From contig NZ_AMSI01000017.1 of NCBI RefSeq assembly GCF_000300515.1, positions 44,442 to 108,441 of the forward strand: DNA of 64,000 nucleotides, written 5' to 3'. The notes beneath the pieces are model-generated. The model did no database searches. It saw only the letters and a program-made list of their open reading frames with translations, and was not told the origin of the DNA. The stretch comes from Nitratireductor indicus C115 (GTDB lineage Bacteria > Pseudomonadota > Alphaproteobacteria > Rhizobiales > Rhizobiaceae). Of the stretch, positions 41,925 through 63,661 are shown one piece after another. The translations under genes were made by a program, and so were the position numbers. Each line of letters opens with the position of its first letter. Positions within the stretch are counted from its first letter, which is position 1.

Positions 41925-42629
41925 ATGACAAAGGATTCCGCCGCCAAGTTCGATGCTTCCCGCGCCGGAGAGTATGCGCGCCAGAGCCGGATCGCCCTGG
42001 CGGGTTACGACGCTTGCCATGAGCTTTCCGCTTGCATGCTCTCCGCCAGCCTTGGCGAAGGCAGGCAGGCGCGGGTGCTGGTTGTTGGTGCTGGAGGCAC
42101 GGCTGGAGAAATCATCGCTGCGGCGCGCCTGGAGCCGGATTGGTCCTTCATTGCAGTGGACCCGTCCGAGCCCATGCTTGATCTTGCGCGCTTGCAGCTC
42201 GCCAAGGCCGGGCTTTCCGACCGCGTGGAGAGCATTCTCGGTTCCGTCGCCGATCTGGACGCGACCGCTTCATTCGATGCCGGGATCATGATCGGCGTTT
42301 TGCATCATCTGCCCGGCGCCGCCGCCAAACATGATATCCTGTCGCAGATCGCCAAACGGCTGAAGCCGGGCGCACCCCTCGTGCTCGCGGGGAATTACAG
42401 GGCTTACGCATCGCAGCCATTGTTCATGGCGGCCTGGGCGACGCGCTGGCGGATGAGCGGTGCGGAGCCGGATGAGGTACACGCCAAGATGGGACGGATC
42501 CTGCAAGGTGCGGAGCCGCCCGGATCGGAGGAAGAGGTGGCCTCCCTGCTCACCGAGGCCGGTTTTGAGGAACCTGTCCGTTTTTTTGCGAGCCTGTTCT
42601 GGGGCGCCTGGCTCACGCATCGCATGTAG
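41925..42629 (+). CDS. Class I SAM-dependent methyltransferase
   Basis: 234 residues. Motif I VLVVGAGGTAGEIIAAARLE and the acidic IAVDPSEPMLDLA (motif II) are the SAM-binding core, with FDAGIMIGVLHHLPG later (motif IV/V). The substrate is unknown. It lies 84 bases from, and divergent to, an AraC-type regulator, an inducible pair. It is outside the island that carries the biosynthetic operon, about 19 kb from KamA, so a link to that pathway is not supported. Confidence 0.88.
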   Translation: MTKDSAAKFDASRAGEYARQSRIALAGYDACHELSACMLSASLGEGRQARVLVVGAGGTAGEIIAAARLEPDWSFIAVDPSEPMLDLARLQLAKAGLSDRVESILGSVADLDATASFDAGIMIGVLHHLPGAAAKHDILSQIAKRLKPGAPLVLAGNYRAYASQPLFMAAWATRWRMSGAEPDEVHAKMGRILQGAEPPGSEEEVASLLTEAGFEEPVRFFASLFWGAWLTHRM

Positions 42630-53865: not shown

Positions 53866-55875
53866 TCAATTTAAACCCACATCGGTCGAACCAAGCGATA
53901 AATCAATTGTCAGGAAATCGGCCGGGAACCATGTGTCAATGCGCCAAGTTCCCGGGAACTGCGATAGTAGGTACTTTCCAAGGCGCGGTGCGATGGGTTC
54001 GACCGCCACAGCAATGGTCACGGTAGCCGCGGCAACCAAACGTGCCTCCGTTCTGAACTGAGATGCAGAGTAAGCATACATCTTGTCCGAACGGGTTTGT
54101 GCAGAATGAAGATACCGGGAAAGCCCATCCACCAGAGATTCCATATGCCGGGCCGCTGCTGAGAAATCCAGAACAGACAAATCGAAGCTCTTTTGAATTG
54201 CTGCTATGGCCGCCTTTGTCGACATGTACATGCTCACATCATCCCGGCTCCAGGCTCCCGGCATCGGTATCGATTGAGACGTCATGTTTTTCCGCAGAAA
54301 AGCCAGCGCTCCTGAAAGGGTGTCAACAATCCGGTCTTGCCAATGATTTGTAAGCCAGCGGTCGAATTCCTGCGGCAAGAAGTCGACCTGCTGCCCCACG
54401 GGGCTATTGCGTGCAATGTAGAAGCGGAATGGATCTGCATTTGTTCCATCAATGAACTCATTTACCCAAACTGCATGGTTCCGGGAAGTAGAGAATTTCT
54501 CGCCGTTCAGCAGCAAGAATTCATTCATGACGACCATGCGCGGCGCCGATTTGCTTAGCCCGAGGGCAATCATCAGCGCAGGGAACAGAATGAGGCGACC
54601 GAATGCATTATCCGCTCCAAAAAGTGCGACCGTTGTCGGAACCTGCTCAGGCCGGAGTTCTTCGAAACAAGACACGCCATAATGACGCGCGCCAAAGGTT
54701 TCCAAAGCAAATAGGTAGCGAACGACGCGCTCCAAGACATCGGTGTATTTCTGGTCCTCGAAGCCAGGCCGAGCAACCGCAATTCCTTCAGAGTATGGAT
54801 TGGAGAGACAAACATCAGGCAAAGGGCCTGCCAACCACTTTTCGATGTAAAGTCGAGCCCGGGTGGGCAAAAGCGCTGAAGCTGTATATTGCCTAATGGC
54901 ATCACGCAGCAACTCAGTGCGCAGAAACAGCCGCTTCAGCTTTCGCCGGCCAACCGGCTTGCCTTGATGATCAGTAACCTCTCCGAGGTCAGCATCTATG
55001 ATCGTGGCACCGCAACTCTCGCACTCGGATGTCGCCCCGGCACTGTGGCAATGGGGGCAAACACCCTTGGCCAATGCCTCGATGCGAAATTCCTGCATTT
55101 CCTCATCGAAGGGAGCGTCATGTTCGATTTCGGCCAGCAAATTTGCCTCATCCAGGCGTGACAGCAGACGGTGGCAAATCGAATCGAAGGCTTTGGGTTG
55201 TTCGCATTCCAGAAACAGGTCGAAATCTATGTTGAGCCGTCCCAGCGATTCCCGGATACTGTCGGCATATCGCCGAGCGACCTCATAGAACTCGCCGCCG
55301 TGCTTCTCCGCATTGATCCGTAGATATTGCAGGTGCCCCTGGCAACCTTGCAGGTGCAGCACCTCACGGCCGGCTGAACGCAATGCCCGTGCTGCAAAAT
55401 CAGCTTGAAGAAATGGCCCACTGGCATGCCCAAGGTGCATTTCGCCGTTCGGAGTAATCATCGGTGGCTGCACTATCACCCGGCTGCAGCCGTCTAAGTT
55501 TGCATCCAGCGATCGCTTCGCCGCTTCGGCGAAATATGCAGCATCTGTCCACCAAACAGCATGCATGATGGTGTCTTCTCTGGGGGACTCGATGCGATGA
55601 ATCTGCAAAGGCTCGACGCGGATGGAGTCTCCTTGATTCAATTCGATTTGATGATCGTCCATCCAAATGCGTAAACTCCCCGAGATCACCGTCCAGAATT
55701 CTATATCGTTGTGATTATGGTATTCGGTGATTGAGCCTGCGGGATAGGTAATAAGCCGCACGCTAACCTTGTCTTGTTCTTCAAATGGGTTCATCGCCCC
55801 TCTTTGGGTGGCGTCCGGTTTTGCATGAAGCGTTTCACGACGAGCACGGCGTGATTCTGGTAGGATATCAGTCAT
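53866..55875 (-). CDS. Cupin-MetRS fusion, likely hydrazine (N-N bond) synthetase
   Basis: 669 residues in two domains. An N-terminal cupin has the full metal motif: H53, H55 and E59 in GSITEYHNHNDIEFWTVISG and H93 in EPLQIHRIES. A class I aminoacyl-tRNA synthetase domain follows, closest to MetRS: HLGH (147-150) in PPMITPNGEMHLGHASG, a zinc knuckle CPHC-x8-CESC, and NGEKFSTSRNHAVW for the KMSKS loop. Such cupin-MetRS fusions join N6-hydroxylysine to glycine or glutamate through an N-N bond in hydrazine pathways. It overlaps the upstream gene by eight bases, with GGAGG near nine bases before the start. Confidence 0.9.
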   Translation of the reverse strand: MTDILPESRRARRETLHAKPDATQRGAMNPFEEQDKVSVRLITYPAGSITEYHNHNDIEFWTVISGSLRIWMDDHQIELNQGDSIRVEPLQIHRIESPREDTIMHAVWWTDAAYFAEAAKRSLDANLDGCSRVIVQPPMITPNGEMHLGHASGPFLQADFAARALRSAGREVLHLQGCQGHLQYLRINAEKHGGEFYEVARRYADSIRESLGRLNIDFDLFLECEQPKAFDSICHRLLSRLDEANLLAEIEHDAPFDEEMQEFRIEALAKGVCPHCHSAGATSECESCGATIIDADLGEVTDHQGKPVGRRKLKRLFLRTELLRDAIRQYTASALLPTRARLYIEKWLAGPLPDVCLSNPYSEGIAVARPGFEDQKYTDVLERVVRYLFALETFGARHYGVSCFEELRPEQVPTTVALFGADNAFGRLILFPALMIALGLSKSAPRMVVMNEFLLLNGEKFSTSRNHAVWVNEFIDGTNADPFRFYIARNSPVGQQVDFLPQEFDRWLTNHWQDRIVDTLSGALAFLRKNMTSQSIPMPGAWSRDDVSMYMSTKAAIAAIQKSFDLSVLDFSAAARHMESLVDGLSRYLHSAQTRSDKMYAYSASQFRTEARLVAAATVTIAVAVEPIAPRLGKYLLSQFPGTWRIDTWFPADFLTIDLSLGSTDVGLN

Positions 55876-56980
55876 GGCAACTGTCCTCCTCAAGAATGCG
55901 TTGTGTCTGGTGGCTGCCGGTCCAGCAAATGCTGGTTCCGCTACCGTCGGGTCCAAATTGCTGGACAATGTCCTTAAAACTATAAAAGACGGAATCGTTT
56001 CGATCTGCCGCCGGAAAAATACATCTCGCCTGATGTTCGATACTCATTCCGGCAACGAGAGCGGCGATGGAACCAAGTGCCGTCGCCCATGCCATAGCTG
56101 AAAATCCAGAACAGGGATCAGTCCGCACAATAATCTCGAATTGCCGATGATCCTTCTGGGCTCGCGCAGCCAACAGCACGACGTCTTCGCCCCGTGGTGT
56201 GACGGCGGCTGTTTTTTCGTTCGGACTGAGATCAGAAAGTGCAAATGCTGCGAAACCCGGCCAGCGCAGTGTACGCTGGTGCAAGGTCGGAACTGTGCTA
56301 AGGCTCGGTTCGCTCAACGTTTCAGGCAACAAAGCGTCGTCATAGCATTCTAGGACCCCAAAGTCGGGAAAGAACACCTGATCTCGGGTGTCAAACCGAG
56401 GGCGCTTCACTTCACATCCATTGATGCGCGCGAGGCTTGTTCGGTTGGTGAATGCGCTTTCCGTGGCGAAATTCATTTCATGCCAAGCGGGGGCCGAGGG
56501 AATGTGAGGCAGGCCGCCACAATAGGTCTCGATGCAGTCGGGCATGACCATCTTCTTGTGCAAGACCTGAAGCAGCGCTTCCGCCAAGCCCGGCTCAAGC
56601 CCGGCTCCGAAATGAATCGGTCGCCTGGTAAAAACTGCCGGGTCGACGTCGGCAGGTCGTCCCACGACCAAAAAACGGATCCCCTGCGATAGGCGTTGAT
56701 CCAATGGGATAAGCAGAGGATAGGCCTGTACATGGGAAAGTGCGAAAACGACCGCACATTTTTTTGCCGGGGTTTTGGAAAAGAATCGATTCAGCGCGGA
56801 TAATATTTTTTCAGTGTCATCGGAGATGAATAGCTCAGTTTCACTATTCATTCTTTGCGCACAATAGGGGACGTCCGCCCGATCGATGACCATGGCCCGG
56901 TAGCCGCCCAATCGAGCAGTGACAGCCTCAATTGCGGCGCCTACGCGACCACCACCAATGATTGCGATATGCGTCGTCAT
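55868..56980 (-). CDS. Saccharopine dehydrogenase-like oxidoreductase
   Basis: 370 residues. The N-terminus IAIIGGGRVGAAIEAVTARL is a Rossmann dinucleotide-binding loop, and HFGAGLEPGLAEALLQVLHK and FPDFGVLECYDDALLPETL fall in the catalytic region of the saccharopine dehydrogenase/homospermidine synthase superfamily. The product of the N-N-forming step would be a saccharopine-like N6-substituted lysine, so this could cleave or reduce it; that is inference. It overlaps the exporter gene by four bases and the cupin-MetRS gene by eight. Confidence 0.78.
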   Translation of the reverse strand: MTTHIAIIGGGRVGAAIEAVTARLGGYRAMVIDRADVPYCAQRMNSETELFISDDTEKILSALNRFFSKTPAKKCAVVFALSHVQAYPLLIPLDQRLSQGIRFLVVGRPADVDPAVFTRRPIHFGAGLEPGLAEALLQVLHKKMVMPDCIETYCGGLPHIPSAPAWHEMNFATESAFTNRTSLARINGCEVKRPRFDTRDQVFFPDFGVLECYDDALLPETLSEPSLSTVPTLHQRTLRWPGFAAFALSDLSPNEKTAAVTPRGEDVVLLAARAQKDHRQFEIIVRTDPCSGFSAMAWATALGSIAALVAGMSIEHQARCIFPAADRNDSVFYSFKDIVQQFGPDGSGTSICWTGSHQTQRILEEDSCHD

Positions 56981-58188
56981 AAGGTGCGTTGTTTTGAATA
57001 GCGCGAGCGATAAAACCCAAACTCGGCCACCACCATGGACATAGCGATCAACCCCGCGATAAAAAAGAGCTGATTATAGCCATGGATCGATACAAGAATG
57101 CCGGCGGCCAGCGGGGTGACGTAATACGAGATAAAATATGCCAAGCTGAAAGCAACCAAAAAGAAGCTTCGCGTAGAAATTGTGGCATATTTCACGGTCT
57201 CAGCTTGAACGATCGGATAAGAGAGGCCATAGAAAACACCCAACGAGACGGCGGCCATCCCATAAAGAAGGTTCGATGATGGCCCTGCAGCCAAAGCGAA
57301 CAGGGAAATGCCGAGGCACGCTGTTAAGATGGGCAGGACTATCCGATTGTCCCGCTTAGCAATCCAGCCGCCCAATACAAGGCGTGGCACCATAATTCCG
57401 ATTGCCCAACACGTGAAAAATACGGAAGAACTCAGTCCGTTCTGCTCGCCGAAAACGACCTGGAAGTTAATGATAATCGTGAATATTGCACTTTGCAGAA
57501 GAACCATGAACACAAAAAACAAGGCCGGAGACTGCAGAATTTCTCCGATGCCATCTGTTCGGGATGTTTCGCTTGCTGTTGAAGTGGACAAACCATCAGC
57601 CGAACCACCGCCGGTAGCTATCGACGCCATGAACCCCATCAAAGACAGGGCAATTAGCAGGCCGAATAGGTATGAGAAGCTATCGTCGACTGACAGCACC
57701 ATCTTGCCTATGATCGGTCCCAAGCTGATGCCCAATGTGCTGAAGGCTGCATAGATCATAAAGTTTTGCTGCCGTGTTGTGTCGGATGATGCGGCTGAGA
57801 CTTTGATAGATCCCAAAGTGAAGTGTGTAATCCAGCCTGCCGAAATCAGTGGAACGCAAACAAAGCCGAGGGCCTTTAGGCTCTCTGGCTGCTGATTCCC
57901 ATAGAGCAAAAGCGCGTATCCCGACAAAAAAAACATCCCGCTTGCGAGGGCTATTTTCTTCACGCGCACTTTTTTCATTATAAATGGCAAAAATAATATA
58001 ATAATTATTGCAATAACGGCACTTATAGCCGATGTCGATCCAAAATAAATTTCATCTAATCCATTTCCGATGAAATAAAAAGGGAGTAAGGCTGCCGATC
58101 CCATGCAGACGGCATGAAATATTCTCTCTATAATAAGAATTATGAAGATTCTCTGAGGGGTTGACGTATAAACTGCTTGGTCTGTCAT
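56977..58188 (-). CDS. MFS transporter, probable product exporter
   Basis: 403 residues, about eleven or twelve transmembrane helices. Residue pattern (RIFHAVCMGSAALLPFYFIG, SLMGFMASIATGGGSADGLS, WAIGIMVPRLVLGGWIAKRD) is that of a drug-efflux MFS protein. Its location in the middle of a biosynthetic operon, overlapping its neighbours by ATGA at both ends, makes export of, or self-resistance to, the pathway product the likely role. Its codon use is AT-richer than the host genes. Confidence 0.88.
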   Translation of the reverse strand: MTDQAVYTSTPQRIFIILIIERIFHAVCMGSAALLPFYFIGNGLDEIYFGSTSAISAVIAIIIILFLPFIMKKVRVKKIALASGMFFLSGYALLLYGNQQPESLKALGFVCVPLISAGWITHFTLGSIKVSAASSDTTRQQNFMIYAAFSTLGISLGPIIGKMVLSVDDSFSYLFGLLIALSLMGFMASIATGGGSADGLSTSTASETSRTDGIGEILQSPALFFVFMVLLQSAIFTIIINFQVVFGEQNGLSSSVFFTCWAIGIMVPRLVLGGWIAKRDNRIVLPILTACLGISLFALAAGPSSNLLYGMAAVSLGVFYGLSYPIVQAETVKYATISTRSFFLVAFSLAYFISYYVTPLAAGILVSIHGYNQLFFIAGLIAMSMVVAEFGFYRSRYSKQRTL

Positions 58189-59498
58189 ACTGCTATCTTT
58201 CGGCTGTGCGGCGCGCCTTGCTGGCTAAGCGGGAAGCTTGTGGCGACGCTTTCTTTATCAAGGGTGTAGTATTCCCTGCCCAAGATGGAATTTACGATCT
58301 TCGCACTACGCCATGCGCTCAAGCTGAGGTTTTGATCAGCAAGACCAAACTGGCTCACACCGGCATTTTGAAGGAAAAGGCGAGCCTTCTTGGACGTTTT
58401 CAGACGCGCGGAAAAATCTTCGTTCAGACAGATTTCACCGCTGGGCAGAAACGTTAGCAAAGTGGCGATGCCGTCCAAAAATGCCGGAGTTTCGTACCTG
58501 TATCCCGTCGCGTAAAGGACCTTGTCACAGTCAAATTCTTCGCGGAAATCAGTCAGGGTATTCCGAGTCGTAACGCTGCGACGGCCTTCGTGTCGTTTGG
58601 CAACATTCAGAACCTCGCAGCTACATTTGAGATGAACACTCGTGTGAGACTCGGTTTCGATATTGTTGCGGTAGAGCCGCGAATAGAGACTCTCTAGCGT
58701 CCGCATGGAAATCCCGTCGCTGGTCATCTTCAGGGATTCGTTGAGCCGAGCGCGAGCTGCTTCTGGCAGGCTGTAGAAGTATTCGGCGAAGGCCGGTGTG
58801 TAGATTTCATTAACAAAGGGAGAATCGTCCAGCGGCAGCAACATTGGACGACGGCAAATCCAATGTATCGTTGCTGGTGGAGTGGGAAGGTTCAGTAGAT
58901 ACTCCACAATTTCCGCTGCCGATTGTCCTCCGCCAACCACGCAGATATCCTGCCCCGCGTAACTTGCGGGCGCACGTTCCATGAAGTTCGCCGAGTGATA
59001 TCGGGTGCGATCCGGATCATCGAAGTTGGGAACGTAAGGTTTCTTGCCGATGCCTACAGAGACGTTGCTCGCAACATATCGCCCCGAGTTGGTCTCCACA
59101 TGGAACCCATCCGTGCCCATGGTAATCGCGGTCGCTTCTGTATTGAATTCAACGGCTTCGAGCCTGTTGATTGCCCAATTATAATACTTCTCGAACGCTT
59201 TTCTGCTAACAGAATATCTGCTCGCAACAAGTGTTCTGTATATGCTGCCCGTTGATTTTAAATATGAGAGAAAAGAATAAGGATTTGTCGGATCGGCCAG
59301 AGTTACCAGATCTTTTAGAAAAGAAACCTGCAATTCAGCACCGGGCAGTTGCATTCCGCTGTGCCATGTGAAGCTCGAAGACCGGTCGAGAATAACAGAG
59401 CCCGATTGTCCAGCCCCTATCCATAGAGCTATGAGGCTCAGATTTGACGGGCCACAGCCAATGGCCAAAAGGTCTTTCTTAAAGATCGAACTAACACT
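58185..59498 (-). CDS. SidA/IucD/PvdA-type lysine/ornithine N-monooxygenase
   Basis: 437 residues. FAD-dependent N-hydroxylase: FAD-binding LLAIGCGPSNLSLIALWIGA, NADPH-binding QDICVVGGGQSAAEIVEYLL, and the C-terminal YATGYRYETPAFLDG and NLSLSAWRSAKIVNSILG. IucD-type enzymes hydroxylate the side-chain amine of lysine and PvdA/SidA-type that of ornithine; the choice is not settled from sequence, but an aminomutase beside it favours lysine. N6-hydroxylysine is the substrate for the cupin-MetRS fusion. It overlaps the MFS gene by four bases and follows the oxygenase gene by 37. Confidence 0.92.
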   Translation of the reverse strand, partial: SVSSIFKKDLLAIGCGPSNLSLIALWIGAGQSGSVILDRSSSFTWHSGMQLPGAELQVSFLKDLVTLADPTNPYSFLSYLKSTGSIYRTLVASRYSVSRKAFEKYYNWAINRLEAVEFNTEATAITMGTDGFHVETNSGRYVASNVSVGIGKKPYVPNFDDPDRTRYHSANFMERAPASYAGQDICVVGGGQSAAEIVEYLLNLPTPPATIHWICRRPMLLPLDDSPFVNEIYTPAFAEYFYSLPEAARARLNESLKMTSDGISMRTLESLYSRLYRNNIETESHTSVHLKCSCEVLNVAKRHEGRRSVTTRNTLTDFREEFDCDKVLYATGYRYETPAFLDGIATLLTFLPSGEICLNEDFSARLKTSKKARLFLQNAGVSQFGLADQNLSLSAWRSAKIVNSILGREYYTLDKESVATSFPLSQQGAPHSRKIAV

Positions 59499-59535
59499 CA
59501 TTTTTGCCAAAACCTATTCCGAGAAGTTCAGCTCT

Positions 59536-60513
59536 TCAGAGATAGTTGATTTCGATACAGGCGCGTTGCAGCCAGCGACGTGCATCAACTGGGGTGGACG
59601 GAGCTTGGGACATGATCTGCCCTTTCCGGCCGTGCAACACACCACCATACCTGCCTTTGGCAACGCCGTTGGCGATTAAGAGTCCCGTCCCTGACGTCAT
59701 CTCAACGCTCCGGACGCATGAGGCTTTGGCCTCGGCAATCGCTGCCTTCAGCACATGGATTGCATCTCGCCCAGCAGGGTCATCTGTGTGAATGCGGTCT
59801 TCTTCGTATATCCGAGATATTGTCCAGCCGTTCGCGATGGCATCCAGTACTGGAGTTTCATCTAACGCCCTTGCCTGAAATCCGTCGCCGCTTCGAACGC
59901 TGTATATCGGCGCTTTCAGTTGCTCCAAATTCTCGGGCGTAAGCCTGTGCAGAATGTCAGCAACCGGTAGGTATTCGGTGAAAACCCCACTTTGCCCTTG
60001 CAGACAGAGCAGTGCCAGAAAACTTGGCGGTGTCTGCAGGAAAACGTTCTCGGCATGAAAGGGCAAGGGTGCCCGCCCCCGTCCAGAAGATTCTTGTTCG
60101 AATTTATCCACTGGATAAATCTGCTGAAGGAAATCCGGCTGGTGGCTACTGGGCTCACGTTGCAGTTTTGCTTTCATCAGTGCCGTCAGGCCGGATAGCA
60201 CCGTTTCGCTGACACGCCCCTTCGCTGCAATATTCTGTTCCAGGCCGCCTAAATCGGGGAGCGGATTGTCCACGGGCACGTCCTTGAGGATCAGAACATC
60301 TGGCCCCCGCCCTTCGCTCATAGAGGCCAAAAGTTCGCGCAACTCCGTTGATGCGACCGCTGCAAACTCAGCGCAAAAATCGTCGTGCCCGCATGCTGGA
60401 TCACGATAGAAATCATGGCTGACGAACTTCTGCGCAAGCGCTTCAAGACCGCGCTTTTCTGTTTCGGAAAACTCGTATTCTGCGCAGATTCTATCGGCAA
60501 CTATATCAAGCAT
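59536..60513 (-). CDS. VioC/AsnO-type Fe(II)/2-oxoglutarate amino-acid hydroxylase
   Basis: 325 residues. The double-stranded beta-helix oxygenase carries iron ligands H153 and E155 in PLPFHAENVFLQ (His-x-Glu rather than His-x-Asp, as in VioC and clavaminate synthase) and the distal H294 in GGVLHGRKG. The following ARRWLQR holds the 2-oxoglutarate-binding arginine in the way of the VioC/OrfP/AsnO family, which hydroxylate free amino acids. The likely substrate is lysine or beta-lysine; inferred from the neighbours. GGGAGG six bases before the ATG at 60513 sets the start, eight bases inside the KamA gene. Confidence 0.9.
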   Translation of the reverse strand: MLDIVADRICAEYEFSETEKRGLEALAQKFVSHDFYRDPACGHDDFCAEFAAVASTELRELLASMSEGRGPDVLILKDVPVDNPLPDLGGLEQNIAAKGRVSETVLSGLTALMKAKLQREPSSHQPDFLQQIYPVDKFEQESSGRGRAPLPFHAENVFLQTPPSFLALLCLQGQSGVFTEYLPVADILHRLTPENLEQLKAPIYSVRSGDGFQARALDETPVLDAIANGWTISRIYEEDRIHTDDPAGRDAIHVLKAAIAEAKASCVRSVEMTSGTGLLIANGVAKGRYGGVLHGRKGQIMSQAPSTPVDARRWLQRACIEINYL

Positions 60514-61864
60514 GAACACCTCCCATAATTCGTTCGGGCGCTGTCCATTGCGGTGCCGCAGGTTCGGTTGGCTTTCCTCGCGCCTCGAAGAAGAATTCTC
60601 CACCGCCTAGCGGCCTCAGATCGTCAAGCCAGCTCGCCGTTTCATCAAACTCTGCTAGGAATACGCGGCCGACAAATGTCGGCTCGCGGGCCTGAAGAAA
60701 CCGCAGCGAGAGCGCCCTTTGCCCGTGCACCTCAACAATGCCGTCAATTACTACCTTTCCAGGATGCGATGACATGACTGGCCCGCGTGCCGTGCGTGAC
60801 AGCCCGGACACCCGCGATATCGCGCTTGAATAGATTTCATGGGCGCGCCAGAGCGGAACGCGAAAATAGCCGGAAGGTCCGGTGTCGCGCTCGACGAACA
60901 TGTAATAAGGGTAGATTCCCAAGGCACTGCAGTCGGTCCAGAGTTTGGCCCAGACGACCGGGTCGTCATTGACGTGCTTCAAGAGAGGCGCCTGTGTGCG
61001 GATAGTCGCACCTGTTGCGCGAATGGCGTTTATCGCCGCCTTCACCTCTGGGGGCTCGAGTTCTCGCGAATGTGTTAAATGGGCCATGAATGCCAGCGAT
61101 TTCCCCGAGGCAACAATCTCCTCAAATAGCGATAGCAGGTCCGCGGCGTCCTCACCTGCGAGGAAGCGATGCGGCCAGTAGGTTACAGCTTTGGAACCAA
61201 ACCGGATCGTTTTTAGGCTTTCGACGGCCAGGAAGGGCTCCACATACCGGCGCAGATTCTTCGAATTCATGATCAGTGGATCGCCACCAGTGATCAGAAT
61301 ATCGGTGATCTCTTGGTGACACCGAAGATAGGATACAGCTTGAGCCGCTTCACGCGCCTGTATTTTCCATGCAGGTTCGCCAACGAATTGGGGCCAACGG
61401 AAGCAAAAACTGCAATAAGCATGGCAGGTCTGCCCGGCGCTGGGAAAGAACAAGGCAGTTTCCGCGTATTTATGCTGTATCCCATCGAGAATATCTTCGC
61501 CGAGAGTGGGAATATTATCCGTCATTTGGCCAGCCGGATGAGGATTGAGTTCCTCTCGGGTAACTCTCACCGCTTCGCGGAGGTCGGTTGACGTGGCATT
61601 CTGTGCCGCTTCAATTCGGGCAAACTGACTCCTTGTCAGCATACCTTCTTGCGGAAAGAGCAGCCGAAACATTGGATCGTCTTCGGGCGCACTCCAGTCG
61701 ATAAAATTTTCGAGAACATATTCGTTGACGCGAAAAGGAAGAACTTCTGAGGCGACTAAGAAAGTCTTTCGGTAGTCGACACTCAGATTATCCCAGTACC
61801 GCAATTCGGTGAGCTTCTTGGCCGTCACTGGTCGGTATTGGGTAATCGATCGCAACATGTTCAA
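60506..61864 (-). CDS. Lysine 2,3-aminomutase-like radical SAM enzyme
   Basis: 452 residues. KamA family: the radical SAM cluster motif CHAYCSFC (C147, C151, C154) in FFPSAGQTCHAYCSFCFRW, and EITDILITGGDPLI. The PLP-lysine region reads GPVMSSHPGKVVIDG, keeping the Pro-Gly-Lys but not the Gly-rich stretch of classic LAM. The enzyme moves the alpha-amino group of an amino acid to the beta carbon, giving for lysine beta-lysine; glutamate- or arginine-type relatives are also possible. It is the first gene of the operon. The next gene overlaps it by eight bases. Confidence 0.88.
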   Translation of the reverse strand: MNMLRSITQYRPVTAKKLTELRYWDNLSVDYRKTFLVASEVLPFRVNEYVLENFIDWSAPEDDPMFRLLFPQEGMLTRSQFARIEAAQNATSTDLREAVRVTREELNPHPAGQMTDNIPTLGEDILDGIQHKYAETALFFPSAGQTCHAYCSFCFRWPQFVGEPAWKIQAREAAQAVSYLRCHQEITDILITGGDPLIMNSKNLRRYVEPFLAVESLKTIRFGSKAVTYWPHRFLAGEDAADLLSLFEEIVASGKSLAFMAHLTHSRELEPPEVKAAINAIRATGATIRTQAPLLKHVNDDPVVWAKLWTDCSALGIYPYYMFVERDTGPSGYFRVPLWRAHEIYSSAISRVSGLSRTARGPVMSSHPGKVVIDGIVEVHGQRALSLRFLQAREPTFVGRVFLAEFDETASWLDDLRPLGGGEFFFEARGKPTEPAAPQWTAPERIMGGVHA

Positions 61865-61941: not shown

Positions 61942-63474
61942 ATGACCACTTTGGAGCGCCGCGGGCCTGCACTGTCACTTCGTCTCAACTTCGACAAGAC
62001 GAAACCGATTCCGTTATACGAACAGCTTAGAGTGCAGTTGGTCGCCCTTCTGAAAGAGAGGCAACTCCCCCCCGCCCAACGTATGCCGTCCGCCCGCAGT
62101 CTGGCGTTAGAAAATGGAGTTTCAAGGACCACCGTTGAGGAGAGTTACAATGCCCTGGTGCAAGAAGGCCTGCTGGTCCGCGTACCAGGATCGGGGACCT
62201 ATGTCGCACCGGTGCCGGCGGGGCTCCGTTATGCTGTGAAAGGGGTGCAGGTGGGTATCGGTTCCGGTCCTTCTTCCATTCACCACCGAAACTGTGGTGC
62301 GCCGATCACATCGCTTGTTGTTGAAACGGAGAAATTTGGGAAGGATTGGAACCTTGCGGCGAAAAATGTACTGCGTAAGTTTCCCAGGCGGTTGCTCGAA
62401 TATGGTGATCCACTTGGGCAACTAGGCCTGCGCGAGCAAATTGCACATCATTTAGCAAAGCGTCGCGGCATATTGTGCGACCCCGAACAGGTTGTCATCA
62501 CATCCGGGTCTCAACAGGCGATTTATCTCACTCTAAGCGTTCTACTGCAGGCGCGTGATAGGATCGTCGTGGAAGATCCCTGTTATCAAAACACCGTCGA
62601 TCTCCTGCGATTCCAGAAACTTGACATTATTCCCGTGCCGGTTGACGAGCACGGGCTCGTTGTTAAGCGTGCACCGCCTGCCCAAGCGGTCTACGTCACG
62701 CCGTCCTTTCAATATCCGCTTGGAGTGGAAATGAGCTTGGAGCGACGGCTACAGCTATTGGCTTGGGCCGAGCGGAATGATGCCTGGATCATCGAAGATG
62801 ATTACGGCAGTGAGTCCATCTATCAAAGTTGCCCAGAAACGTCACTGTTTACTTTGTCAAACTCGCGCCAAGTCATCTATACGGGCTCCTTTAGCCGGAC
62901 ACTCTTCCCTGGGCTGCGTCTCGGGTACATGGTCCTCCCCGCATCAATGGTAGATGCATTCGCCCGCCTGAAGGGCCTTATTGATCGCGAGACATCGGGC
63001 TGGAACCAACTCTTGCTTGAAGAGTTTCTGAGAAATGGCAAAATCGATCCCTATATTCGTCGAACTTGGAAAGCTTATGACCGACTGCGGACCGTCTTTA
63101 TCCAAGCCGCTGAGACACATTTATCCGATAAGCTGGTGATCACAAGGAAGAGTGCGGGGGCATTTGCTACATTTTTTCTGCGTGCGCATTGTAATGATGT
63201 CGCTATTGCCAAACACGCAGACGATTCCGGCCTTTTCGTACGTGCTCTTTCCCCATGCTATTTGACCGCACAGCCACGCTACGGATTATTGGTCTACTAC
63301 CATACGGTCTGCCTTGATACATATGAGCGACAAGTCCGTGGTCTCGCGAGAAGGATTTTACAGTGCGAGGCAGATGCTGGACATGCTCGCCGCTATAGCC
63401 CGCAAAGACTATGTGGACCGCCGCAGGAGGCAGGCCCAGGGCATCCAGAAGGCCAAGGCGGCGGGGGCGTATAG
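61942..63474 (+). CDS. MocR-type regulator lacking the PLP lysine
   Basis: 510 residues. GntR winged helix (YEQLRVQLVALLKERQLPPA, SARSLALENGVSRTTVEESY, QEGLLVRVPGSGTYVAPVPA) and aminotransferase-I domain (VVEDPCYQNTVDLLRFQKLD, YVTPSFQYPLGVEMSLERRL, IIEDDYGSESIYQ). The lysine that normally binds PLP is replaced: the loop reads GSFSRTLFPGLRLGYMV, Arg319, where the other MocR gene here has GSFSKT. It may not bind PLP as an aldimine. Divergent from, and likely controlling, the six-gene operon. The end is odd: the frame runs past its normal end (near ARRIL) into recombinase-remnant DNA, adding about 35 unrelated residues. Confidence 0.85.
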   Translation: MTTLERRGPALSLRLNFDKTKPIPLYEQLRVQLVALLKERQLPPAQRMPSARSLALENGVSRTTVEESYNALVQEGLLVRVPGSGTYVAPVPAGLRYAVKGVQVGIGSGPSSIHHRNCGAPITSLVVETEKFGKDWNLAAKNVLRKFPRRLLEYGDPLGQLGLREQIAHHLAKRRGILCDPEQVVITSGSQQAIYLTLSVLLQARDRIVVEDPCYQNTVDLLRFQKLDIIPVPVDEHGLVVKRAPPAQAVYVTPSFQYPLGVEMSLERRLQLLAWAERNDAWIIEDDYGSESIYQSCPETSLFTLSNSRQVIYTGSFSRTLFPGLRLGYMVLPASMVDAFARLKGLIDRETSGWNQLLLEEFLRNGKIDPYIRRTWKAYDRLRTVFIQAAETHLSDKLVITRKSAGAFATFFLRAHCNDVAIAKHADDSGLFVRALSPCYLTAQPRYGLLVYYHTVCLDTYERQVRGLARRILQCEADAGHARRYSPQRLCGPPQEAGPGHPEGQGGGGV

Positions 63475-63661
63475 AGGAAGGCCCGAGGACACCGAACGCA
63501 ATGCCGCCCTCATGGACATGCTAAAGCGTGGACAGACATGGGCCAGCATCGTGAAGGCCACAGGGGTCTCCACGTCAACGCTCTCCAGGCTACCGAGGCA
63601 TCCCTACGTTCCGTCATCGGCCTTATCTGCGGGTATTGTGACCCAGAGGTTGCCCGTATAG
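63365..63661 (+). pseudogene. Serine recombinase (resolvase) C-terminal remnant
   Basis: In the frame next to that of mocR, ARQMLDMLAAIARKDYVDRR then RRQAQGIQKAKAAGAYRGRP matches the C-terminal end of the resolvase catalytic domain and linker, and MLKRGQTWASIVKATGVSTS its helix-turn-helix. The N-terminal part with the active-site serine is missing, so it is a fragment. The break lies close to 63365 where the mocR gene joins it. It marks an old recombination scar at the island's right side. Confidence 0.75.

Follow-up and report, generated by a model that had tools for sequence, protein, structure and literature searches.

A six-gene operon in Nitratireductor indicus C115 that may make and export a hydroxylated, glutamate-derived hydrazino acid

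We analyzed a 64,000-nucleotide stretch of DNA from Nitratireductor indicus C115 (contig NZ_AMSI01000017.1, positions 44,442 to 108,441 of the forward strand; hereafter the window), in which an original prediction had described a compact operon fitting a hydrazine plus hydroxy-β-lysine pathway. The six minus-strand open reading frames (ORFs) of this operon are all present at positions 53866..61864, and their families are broadly those first assigned, the VioC-type call resting on weak matches. Together with a divergent regulator gene, they are as follows.

60506..61864, minus strand: KamA-like radical S-adenosylmethionine (SAM)/pyridoxal 5'-phosphate (PLP) 2,3-aminomutase, 452 amino acids (aa) from a TTG, with an ATG at 61858
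59536..60513, minus strand: VioC/AsnO-like Fe(II)/2-oxoglutarate hydroxylase, 325 aa from an ATG; the ORF opens at a GTG, 60603
58185..59510, minus strand: flavin N-hydroxylase, predicted to act on lysine N6, with a SidA/IucD family match
56977..58188, minus strand: predicted major facilitator superfamily (MFS) exporter, with an MFS_1 match
55868..56980, minus strand: saccharopine-dehydrogenase-like enzyme, predicted from motifs and a fold match to cleave C6-N of the hydrazine intermediate
53866..55875, minus strand: putative hydrazine synthetase fusing a cupin to a methionyl-tRNA synthetase (MetRS)-like domain, 669 aa from an ATG; the ORF opens at a TTG, 55968
61942..63474, plus strand: divergent MocR/PdxR-type regulator, with a PdxR model match

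Better starts are available for the VioC-like gene (ATG 60513, after GGAGGT) and for the synthetase gene (ATG 55875, after GAGGAG). With these starts the operon overlaps measure 8, 4, 4 and 8 bases, in line with the mostly 4- or 8-base overlaps first described, and the VioC-to-SidA junction is a 25-base gap instead of an overlap.

The putative synthetase carries an N-terminal cupin (Cupin_2, 4e-12) fused to a MetRS-like domain (tRNA-synt_1g, 4.5e-50), and its 669 aa compare with 668 aa for PyrN, as judged from the truncations named in PMC8664883. PyrN/RHS1-type enzymes link N6-hydroxylysine with an amino acid through an ester, which the cupin then rearranges, and the MetRS-like protein of Rhodococcus jostii is reported to use L-Glu (PMC8664883). 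The cupin was examined for the zinc site His-x-His-x3-Glu ... His with its essential Glu (PyrN Glu56, RHS1 Glu69), and we observed all the ligands, HNHNDIE plus QIHRI, the essential Glu included. The class I motifs are also present, as HLGH (HIGH-type) and as GEKFSTS, the Lys-containing ATP motif (PyrN Lys458). Phylogeny had been put forward as a test of the cupin-MetRS assignment. In a tree of 22 rows, with a single fragment as the one true MetRS, the protein grouped with other hydrazine synthetases, next to those of Xenorhabdus, Rahnella, Rhodobacter and Mesorhizobium (100/100). Seven saccharopine-dehydrogenase-linked synthetases, those of the window and of Rhodococcus included, were split from nine rows linked to a flavin adenine dinucleotide (FAD) enzyme (97/97). 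The dehydrogenase-linked rows showed no FAD oxidase among those of their neighbours that were inspected. Two loci, L073 and L080, were placed with the FAD-enzyme-linked rows though saccharopine dehydrogenase genes share their clusters. Taken together, the catalytic residues and the grouping with the Rhodococcus enzyme make the predicted N-N-forming core well supported for the cupin/MetRS-like synthetase. They also uphold the hydrazine half of the earlier proposal, and we consider it likely that the operon forms an N-N bond from N6-hydroxylysine.

For the amino acid pocket, mapping followed the E. coli MetRS numbering (253, 259, 301). The window synthetase has Val at the Trp253 position, Arg417 at 259 and Arg458 at 301 (numbering of the TTG ORF), and the Rhodococcus synthetase has Ala, Arg and Arg. 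Arg was observed at both 259 and 301 in 7/7 dehydrogenase-linked rows of the second alignment. The first alignment included 7 of the 12 Mesorhizobium loci, each of them with both Arg, and 2 of the 12 entered the second alignment and the tree. None of the 13 other hydrazine-synthetase rows has the pair, and the Pyrococcus MetRS is also without both. Trp is kept in 12 of these 13 rows, the thirteenth being that of Burkholderia, where the alignment is unsure; the azaserine-like rows L073, L076 and L080 have no Arg pair, with Trp253 as well as Asp52 retained. Because of this pair an acidic partner is favoured and glycine disfavoured, and pocket and group look glutamate-type, by comparison with one Glu-using reference. 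An acidic amino acid is thus a likely partner, most probably glutamate or β-glutamate, and the hydrazinoacetate-type half of the original prediction is unlikely, since the pocket looks glutamate-type and not glycine-type. As a separate observation, the PDB entries 9vq4, 9vqj, 9vr2 and 9l8v, are filed as methionine-tRNA ligase, but their similarity to the window synthetase far exceeds that of true MetRS (227 bits for 9vq4, compared to ≤99 for true MetRS chains). 9vq4 carries the Arg pair, and the four are probably hydrazine synthetase MetRS-like proteins.

The KamA-like protein matches its family at 3.9e-37 (128 bits, below the 199-bit cut-off) and possesses the CxxxCxxC motif, Arg156 equivalent to Arg134 of lysine 2,3-aminomutase (LAM), and Lys370 at the place of LAM Lys337. 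In LAM the Cys residues bind the cluster, the Arg the carboxylate and the Lys the PLP, and Asp293 with an acidic residue at 330 holds the substrate epsilon-amine. Arg326, numbered directly by the alignment to 2a5h, occupies the Asp293 position and Val363, neutral instead of acidic, the 330 position, so the window enzyme lacks both lysine-specific residues. Arg at 293 was found in 24/24 rows of the subfamily (12 from one alignment and 12 from a search of the phylum), with Val, Ile or Ser at 330. By contrast, position 293 is Asp and position 330 acidic (Asp or Glu) in all three aligned controls (L054-L056; two EpmB above cut-off, one AblA-like protein below the specific-model cut-offs). These residues argue against the hydroxy-β-lysine half that had been proposed. 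In the KamA tree, the window, Rhodobacter, Xenorhabdus and Rahnella proteins form one group (99/99), with those of Rhodococcus and Burkholderia elsewhere in the subfamily. A subfamily member lies beside an N-N synthetase in six lineages: the window, Rhodobacter (L046), Xenorhabdus (L036), Rahnella (L037), Rhodococcus (L002) and Burkholderia (L003). Mainly because of the pocket charge and the neighbour genes, glutamate is the reasonably likely substrate of this putative aminomutase. In the literature, knockout and feeding experiments make IdnL4 a likely glutamate 2,3-aminomutase (PMC11284099), an eam gene is named for β-glutamate (PMC9337991), and nuclear magnetic resonance work reportedly excluded a glutamate aminomutase route to β-glutamate, apparently in methanogens (PMC1224877).

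The N-hydroxylase is of the SidA/IucD type (Lys_Orn_oxgnase, 2.4e-93). Its identity is 22-27% to the enzymes of the Rhodobacter, Xenorhabdus, Rahnella and Mesorhizobium loci and 34-38% to the Rhodococcus, azaserine-type and Rhizobium rhizogenes enzymes, with which it groups in the tree (100/99); the Rhodococcus enzyme is described as an N6-lysine hydroxylase (PMC8664883). From this placement it looks as if the window N-hydroxylase had been exchanged. The tree was also enlarged with 17 rows from the order (15/150 genomes). N-hydroxylases of N-N pathways do not form a clade of their own in it, as hydrazine-linked and other rows intermingle with at least three changes forced; the tree is neutral on an N-N role, which rests on the neighbours. 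Two of the 17 order loci (L098 and L101) show a MetRS-like stretch beside the N-hydroxylase (1e-30 and 6e-17) and are possibly further hydrazine loci. Action on diamines, as in the best PDB matches (6xbb, desferrioxamine enzyme, putrescine hydroxylase), was considered but set aside, as the same structures rank first for the Rhodococcus enzyme.

At 0.001, neither Pfam nor NCBIfam matches the saccharopine-dehydrogenase-like protein, and the PDB gives one sequence match, 3abi (4.9e-4); the protein shares Gx[GA]GLEPGL-type and CGGxP motifs with its relatives. An AlphaFold2 (AF2) model built with five relatives reached moderate confidence, with a mean predicted local distance difference test score (pLDDT) of 73.8 and a predicted template modelling score of 0.79. 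Foldseek matched this model to 3abi, a lysine dehydrogenase (6.8e-17), to 5l76 (1.0e-13) and also to carboxyspermidine and saccharopine dehydrogenases, and the modelled fold would suit an N-alkyl-lysine substrate. An FAD (Spb39-type) cleavage enzyme is absent from the operon. In the pyrazomycin pathway, PyrL, a putative saccharopine dehydrogenase, was suggested to convert the conjugate to 2-hydrazinoglutarate (PMC8664883).

The PDB matches behind the VioC-type call are AsnO 2og5 (1.2e-7) and the lysine 3-hydroxylase 6f2a (7.8e-6), and the score against GntD (3.1e-7) is far below cut-off. The iron triad His-x-Glu ... His is present, in FHAENV and a distal LHGR; the AF2 single-sequence model (pLDDT 35.5) is too low for fold assignment. 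Relatives were absent from plasmids at 1e-5, an exact 8-mer scan of genome contigs gave 30 stretches of which none was confirmed, and the best E against 30 fetched loci, mostly hydrazine-type, was 0.74, the relatives' whole genomes lying outside this search. The exporter matches MFS_1 at 2.5e-15 and is 33-35% identical to its MFS counterparts at the Mesorhizobium and Rhodobacter loci (unbroken matches have E 1e-57 to 1e-60). The regulator scores 354.8 bits against the PdxR model (cut-off 320), and its ORF diverges from that of KamA across 77 bases; it likely controls the operon.

A second scan of genome contigs yielded 15 related loci. A Rhodobacter metagenome-assembled genome (MAG) carries the MFS, dehydrogenase, N-hydroxylase, synthetase and KamA genes in one run, that is five of the six operon genes. 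Xenorhabdus mauleonii and Rahnella each have the dehydrogenase, N-hydroxylase, synthetase and KamA genes plus two ATP-grasp genes, with an MFS gene nearby. The suggested search for the same gene set in other genomes thus found five and four of the genes; no close relative of the VioC-like gene turned up in the searches described above. Mesorhizobium has the synthetase at 12 loci, with MFS and dehydrogenase genes at 11, the twelfth (L045) being broken by a contig end. At 1e-3 the window N-hydroxylase finds a counterpart at 9 of the 12. KamA was found at none of the 12, although L042 covers only 0.6 kb downstream, and in one such genome the KamA query matches an AblA-like protein only (6e-20). 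Since the Mesorhizobium synthetases nest among KamA-bearing ones (98/97 and 99/97), their loci have probably lost KamA.

With the dehydrogenase-like query, viral contigs yielded no stretch, and within the genus two of the 10 other genomes gave weak matches (7e-4 and 1e-3). Among 395 genomes of the family, 153 match it (the window's own counted), the best other at 1.4e-10, with 22-27% identity among the matches listed. The synthetase alignment retrieved the window only from 397 genomes of the order at 1e-70. In 398 genomes of the phylum, the KamA query found 12 others at 1e-80; at these 12 loci, of ~4.2 kb each, the other five window proteins were unmatched, ten neighbouring ORFs being checked by Pfam. 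KamA occurs in 1 of 30 genomes of the genus of Xenorhabdus mauleonii at 1e-60, and the synthetase in 1 of 198 genomes of the family of the Rahnella genome at 1e-100 and in 1 of 295 of the family of the Rhodobacter MAG, each time the query genome itself. The loci are thus scattered, a distribution consistent with horizontal transfer.

Several rhizobial loci stood out in these scans. In Mesorhizobium atlanticum (L041, 6161-15319), MFS, dehydrogenase-like, N-hydroxylase and cupin-MetRS genes lie near a GlmS/NodM-like SIS/glutamine amidotransferase and a sulfotransferase; this may be a symbiosis region from which a hydrazine is exported. Plasmid pSmeSM11b of Sinorhizobium meliloti SM11 (L076) bears an azaserine-like cluster. 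In Rhizobium sp. Kim5 (L079), a separate cupin and MetRS-like pair with a phytanoyl-CoA dioxygenase adjoins nodD2/nodD3, and on pC5.7b of Rhizobium rhizogenes (L011) hydrazine-type genes stand beside a phosphoenolpyruvate mutase-like protein, a TauD-type dioxygenase and a dapA-like gene.

The operon has a G+C content of 52.5%, compared to 61.2% for window positions 1-53000. Its neighbours include a relaxase, a conjugative coupling protein and a ParC-like gene (their NCBIfam matches are below cut-off). Leftward the window looks chromosomal, with aconitase and NAD-glutamate dehydrogenase. Because of the low G+C, the mobility-gene neighbours and the lack of a good dehydrogenase-like match in the genus, the operon is probably a laterally gained island. 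The contig stops where the window stops, 2.1 kb from the operon. Near this end, at 63314-63661, a fragment resembling the C-terminal part of a serine recombinase extends into the MocR-type gene at its 3' end; it has a 39-base match to a plasmid recombinase gene and is without Pfam match, and is likely the scar of a mobile element.

Based on these elements, the following pathway can be proposed. As its family suggests, the N-hydroxylase would convert L-lysine to N6-hydroxylysine. The MetRS-like domain would adenylate glutamate or its β isomer and esterify it onto N6-hydroxylysine, and the zinc cupin would rearrange the ester to an N-N bonded product by the mechanism of PyrN/RHS1 (PMC8664883), whose residues are present here. 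The dehydrogenase-like enzyme would then oxidise C6-N, giving aminoadipate semialdehyde and a hydrazinoglutarate-type acid, as suggested for PyrL. From its pocket and neighbours, the KamA-like enzyme would shift the glutamate amino group from C2 to C3, β-glutamate being an alternative partner or a co-building block. The VioC-like oxygenase would hydroxylate one of these compounds, and the MFS protein would export the product under the MocR-type regulator. Overall, we put at slightly better than even (about 0.53) the probability, estimated from sequence comparison, that a small hydrazino acid with a hydroxylated skeleton derived from glutamate is made by the operon and exported. Such a product would probably be new, and unlike negamycin.

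Several observations weigh against this reading. The KamA-like protein scores 80 bits (80.1, 80.2) against the glutamate 2,3-aminomutase model TIGR04368 (cut-off 650) and higher on lysine-type models, though far below cut-off (AblA 93.7, AblA_like_2 111.7); at the sequence level it is at least a different subfamily from the curated glutamate mutase. IdnL4 has so far been inactive in vitro (PMC11284099). Most Arg-type KamA loci inspected lie away from hydrazine genes, with a synthetase adjoining in 2/8 plasmid loci and in 0/12 of the ~4.2 kb phylum loci. For the pocket, the Rhodococcus enzyme is the sole Glu-using reference compared, PyrN being known here by description only, and the Burkholderia locus has mixed features: KamA with FAD oxidases, and Arg/His or Gly/His in the pocket depending on the alignment. 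The enlarged N-hydroxylase tree keeps its division (100/99), but the 20-row group on the window side combines 11 hydrazine-linked rows with 9 of other or unknown context. Finally, disruption of the saccharopine-dehydrogenase-like tri23 and tri24 of triacsin was without effect (PMC10445470), an FAD enzyme being present there.

The order of assembly can be read in two ways. Possibly, though we think it rather unlikely, the synthetase uses α-glutamate to give 2-hydrazinoglutarate, and β-glutamate is a separate block joined by a ligase encoded elsewhere or past the contig end. The loci with ligases favour such a separate unit: the two ATP-grasp proteins in Xenorhabdus and Rahnella lie near the same four genes, and the Rhodococcus locus has ATP-grasp and AMP-binding enzymes; its synthetase is reported to use α-Glu (PMC8664883). 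A ligase could also lie out of view, as the contig ends with the window. On the other hand, the 30 window ORFs scanned gave no ATP-grasp match, and the Rhodobacter locus, with its five shared genes and no ligase in the 6 neighbouring ORFs scanned, favours a little β-glutamate as the synthetase substrate. The ligase-free version, in which the synthetase would join N6-hydroxylysine to KamA-made β-glutamate to give 3-hydrazinoglutarate, hydroxylated by the VioC-like enzyme, is in our view doubtful; if true, 3-hydrazinoglutarate would close to a pyrazolidinone, and enzymatic N-N bond formation would extend to β-amino acids, with an N-N synthetase working on one.

An action of the KamA-like enzyme on another acid (e.g. 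aspartate) or on a pathway intermediate, rather than on free glutamate, is improbable. Arg at the side-chain position argues only for negative charge, which leaves room for other acids, but KamA adjoins glutamate-type synthetases in several lineages, and in Streptomyces (L010) its neighbours are a PLP enzyme, an AMP-binding protein and polyketide synthase genes, as for β-glutamate-derived starter units (PMC11284099). Very improbable is the negamycin-like product first proposed, with KamA and VioC making hydroxy-β-lysine and the other genes a hydrazinoacetate-type half: a Streptomyces plasmid locus (L075) does pair a KamA nearest to the lysine model with a glycine-type synthetase, and a SAM methyltransferase ORF lies at window 41925-42629, 12 kb off in a chromosomal-looking stretch, but the KamA pocket has Arg instead of Asp, the synthetase pocket and group are glutamate-type, negamycin itself reportedly uses NegJ for its hydrazine (PMC12154649), and, as the original prediction had noted, the operon is without amide ligase or N-methyltransferase (the NegJ sequence was not searched for, and DNA past the contig end is outside view).

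The results suggest, within the hydrazine synthetases, a glutamate-type branch linked to saccharopine dehydrogenases, with two pocket Arg as a simple signature that could sort genomes. They connect this branch with an aminomutase subfamily whose substrate becomes directly testable, and, given the Mesorhizobium loci, one may ask whether plant symbionts export hydrazines.

Among known systems, the negamycin cluster shares with the window the theme of a β-amino acid and a hydrazine and differs by its heme enzyme NegJ, ATP-grasp, N-methylation and β-lysine enzymes (PMC12154649). The same paper cites a report that negamycin hydrazinoacetate arises from glycine via NegJ, and the operon genes are of other families. 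A better candidate for a β-lysine plus hydrazinoacetate product, on sequence grounds, is the locus on a plasmid of Streptomyces sp. SAT1 (L075, 1-7890), with KamA, N-hydroxylase, FAD oxidoreductase, cupin-MetRS and a PGM1-related peptide ligase; its KamA is nearest to the lysine 2,3-aminomutase model, below cut-off, with Asp at LAM 293 by eye. The hydrazinoacetate systems Spb38/39/40, Tri26/27/28 and AzsL/M/N follow the same N6-hydroxylysine and cupin-MetRS logic but use a glycine partner and an FAD-dependent cleavage enzyme. None of the papers retrieved was seen to place an aminomutase in a pathway built on such a hydrazine synthetase, though the drawing of the Rhodococcus cluster in the supplement of PMC8664883 may well show that gene. 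The glutamate 2,3-aminomutase/IdnL4 of incednine belongs, like the window enzyme, to the radical SAM KamA family and has a proposed β-glutamate product; the curated model gives the window protein 80 bits only, and IdnL4 was compared by description only. Pyrazomycin PyrM/PyrN/PyrL, likewise compared by description for PyrN, belongs to a C-nucleoside pathway, and "aminomutase" is absent from the PMC8664883 text; it shares with the window the N-hydroxylase, a cupin-MetRS didomain of near-equal length and a suggested saccharopine-dehydrogenase-like cleavage. The Rhodococcus RHS1 cluster (R. jostii RHA1, PMC8664883) was compared through the related strain DK17 (L002) and is without assigned product in that paper. 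Unlike the window, it has separate cupin and MetRS genes and extra ATP-grasp, AMP-binding, peptidyl carrier protein and luciferase-like genes, and no VioC-like gene. Like the window, it combines KamA-like, N-hydroxylase, MetRS-like, cupin, saccharopine-dehydrogenase-like and MFS genes with the Arg pair in the synthetase pocket.

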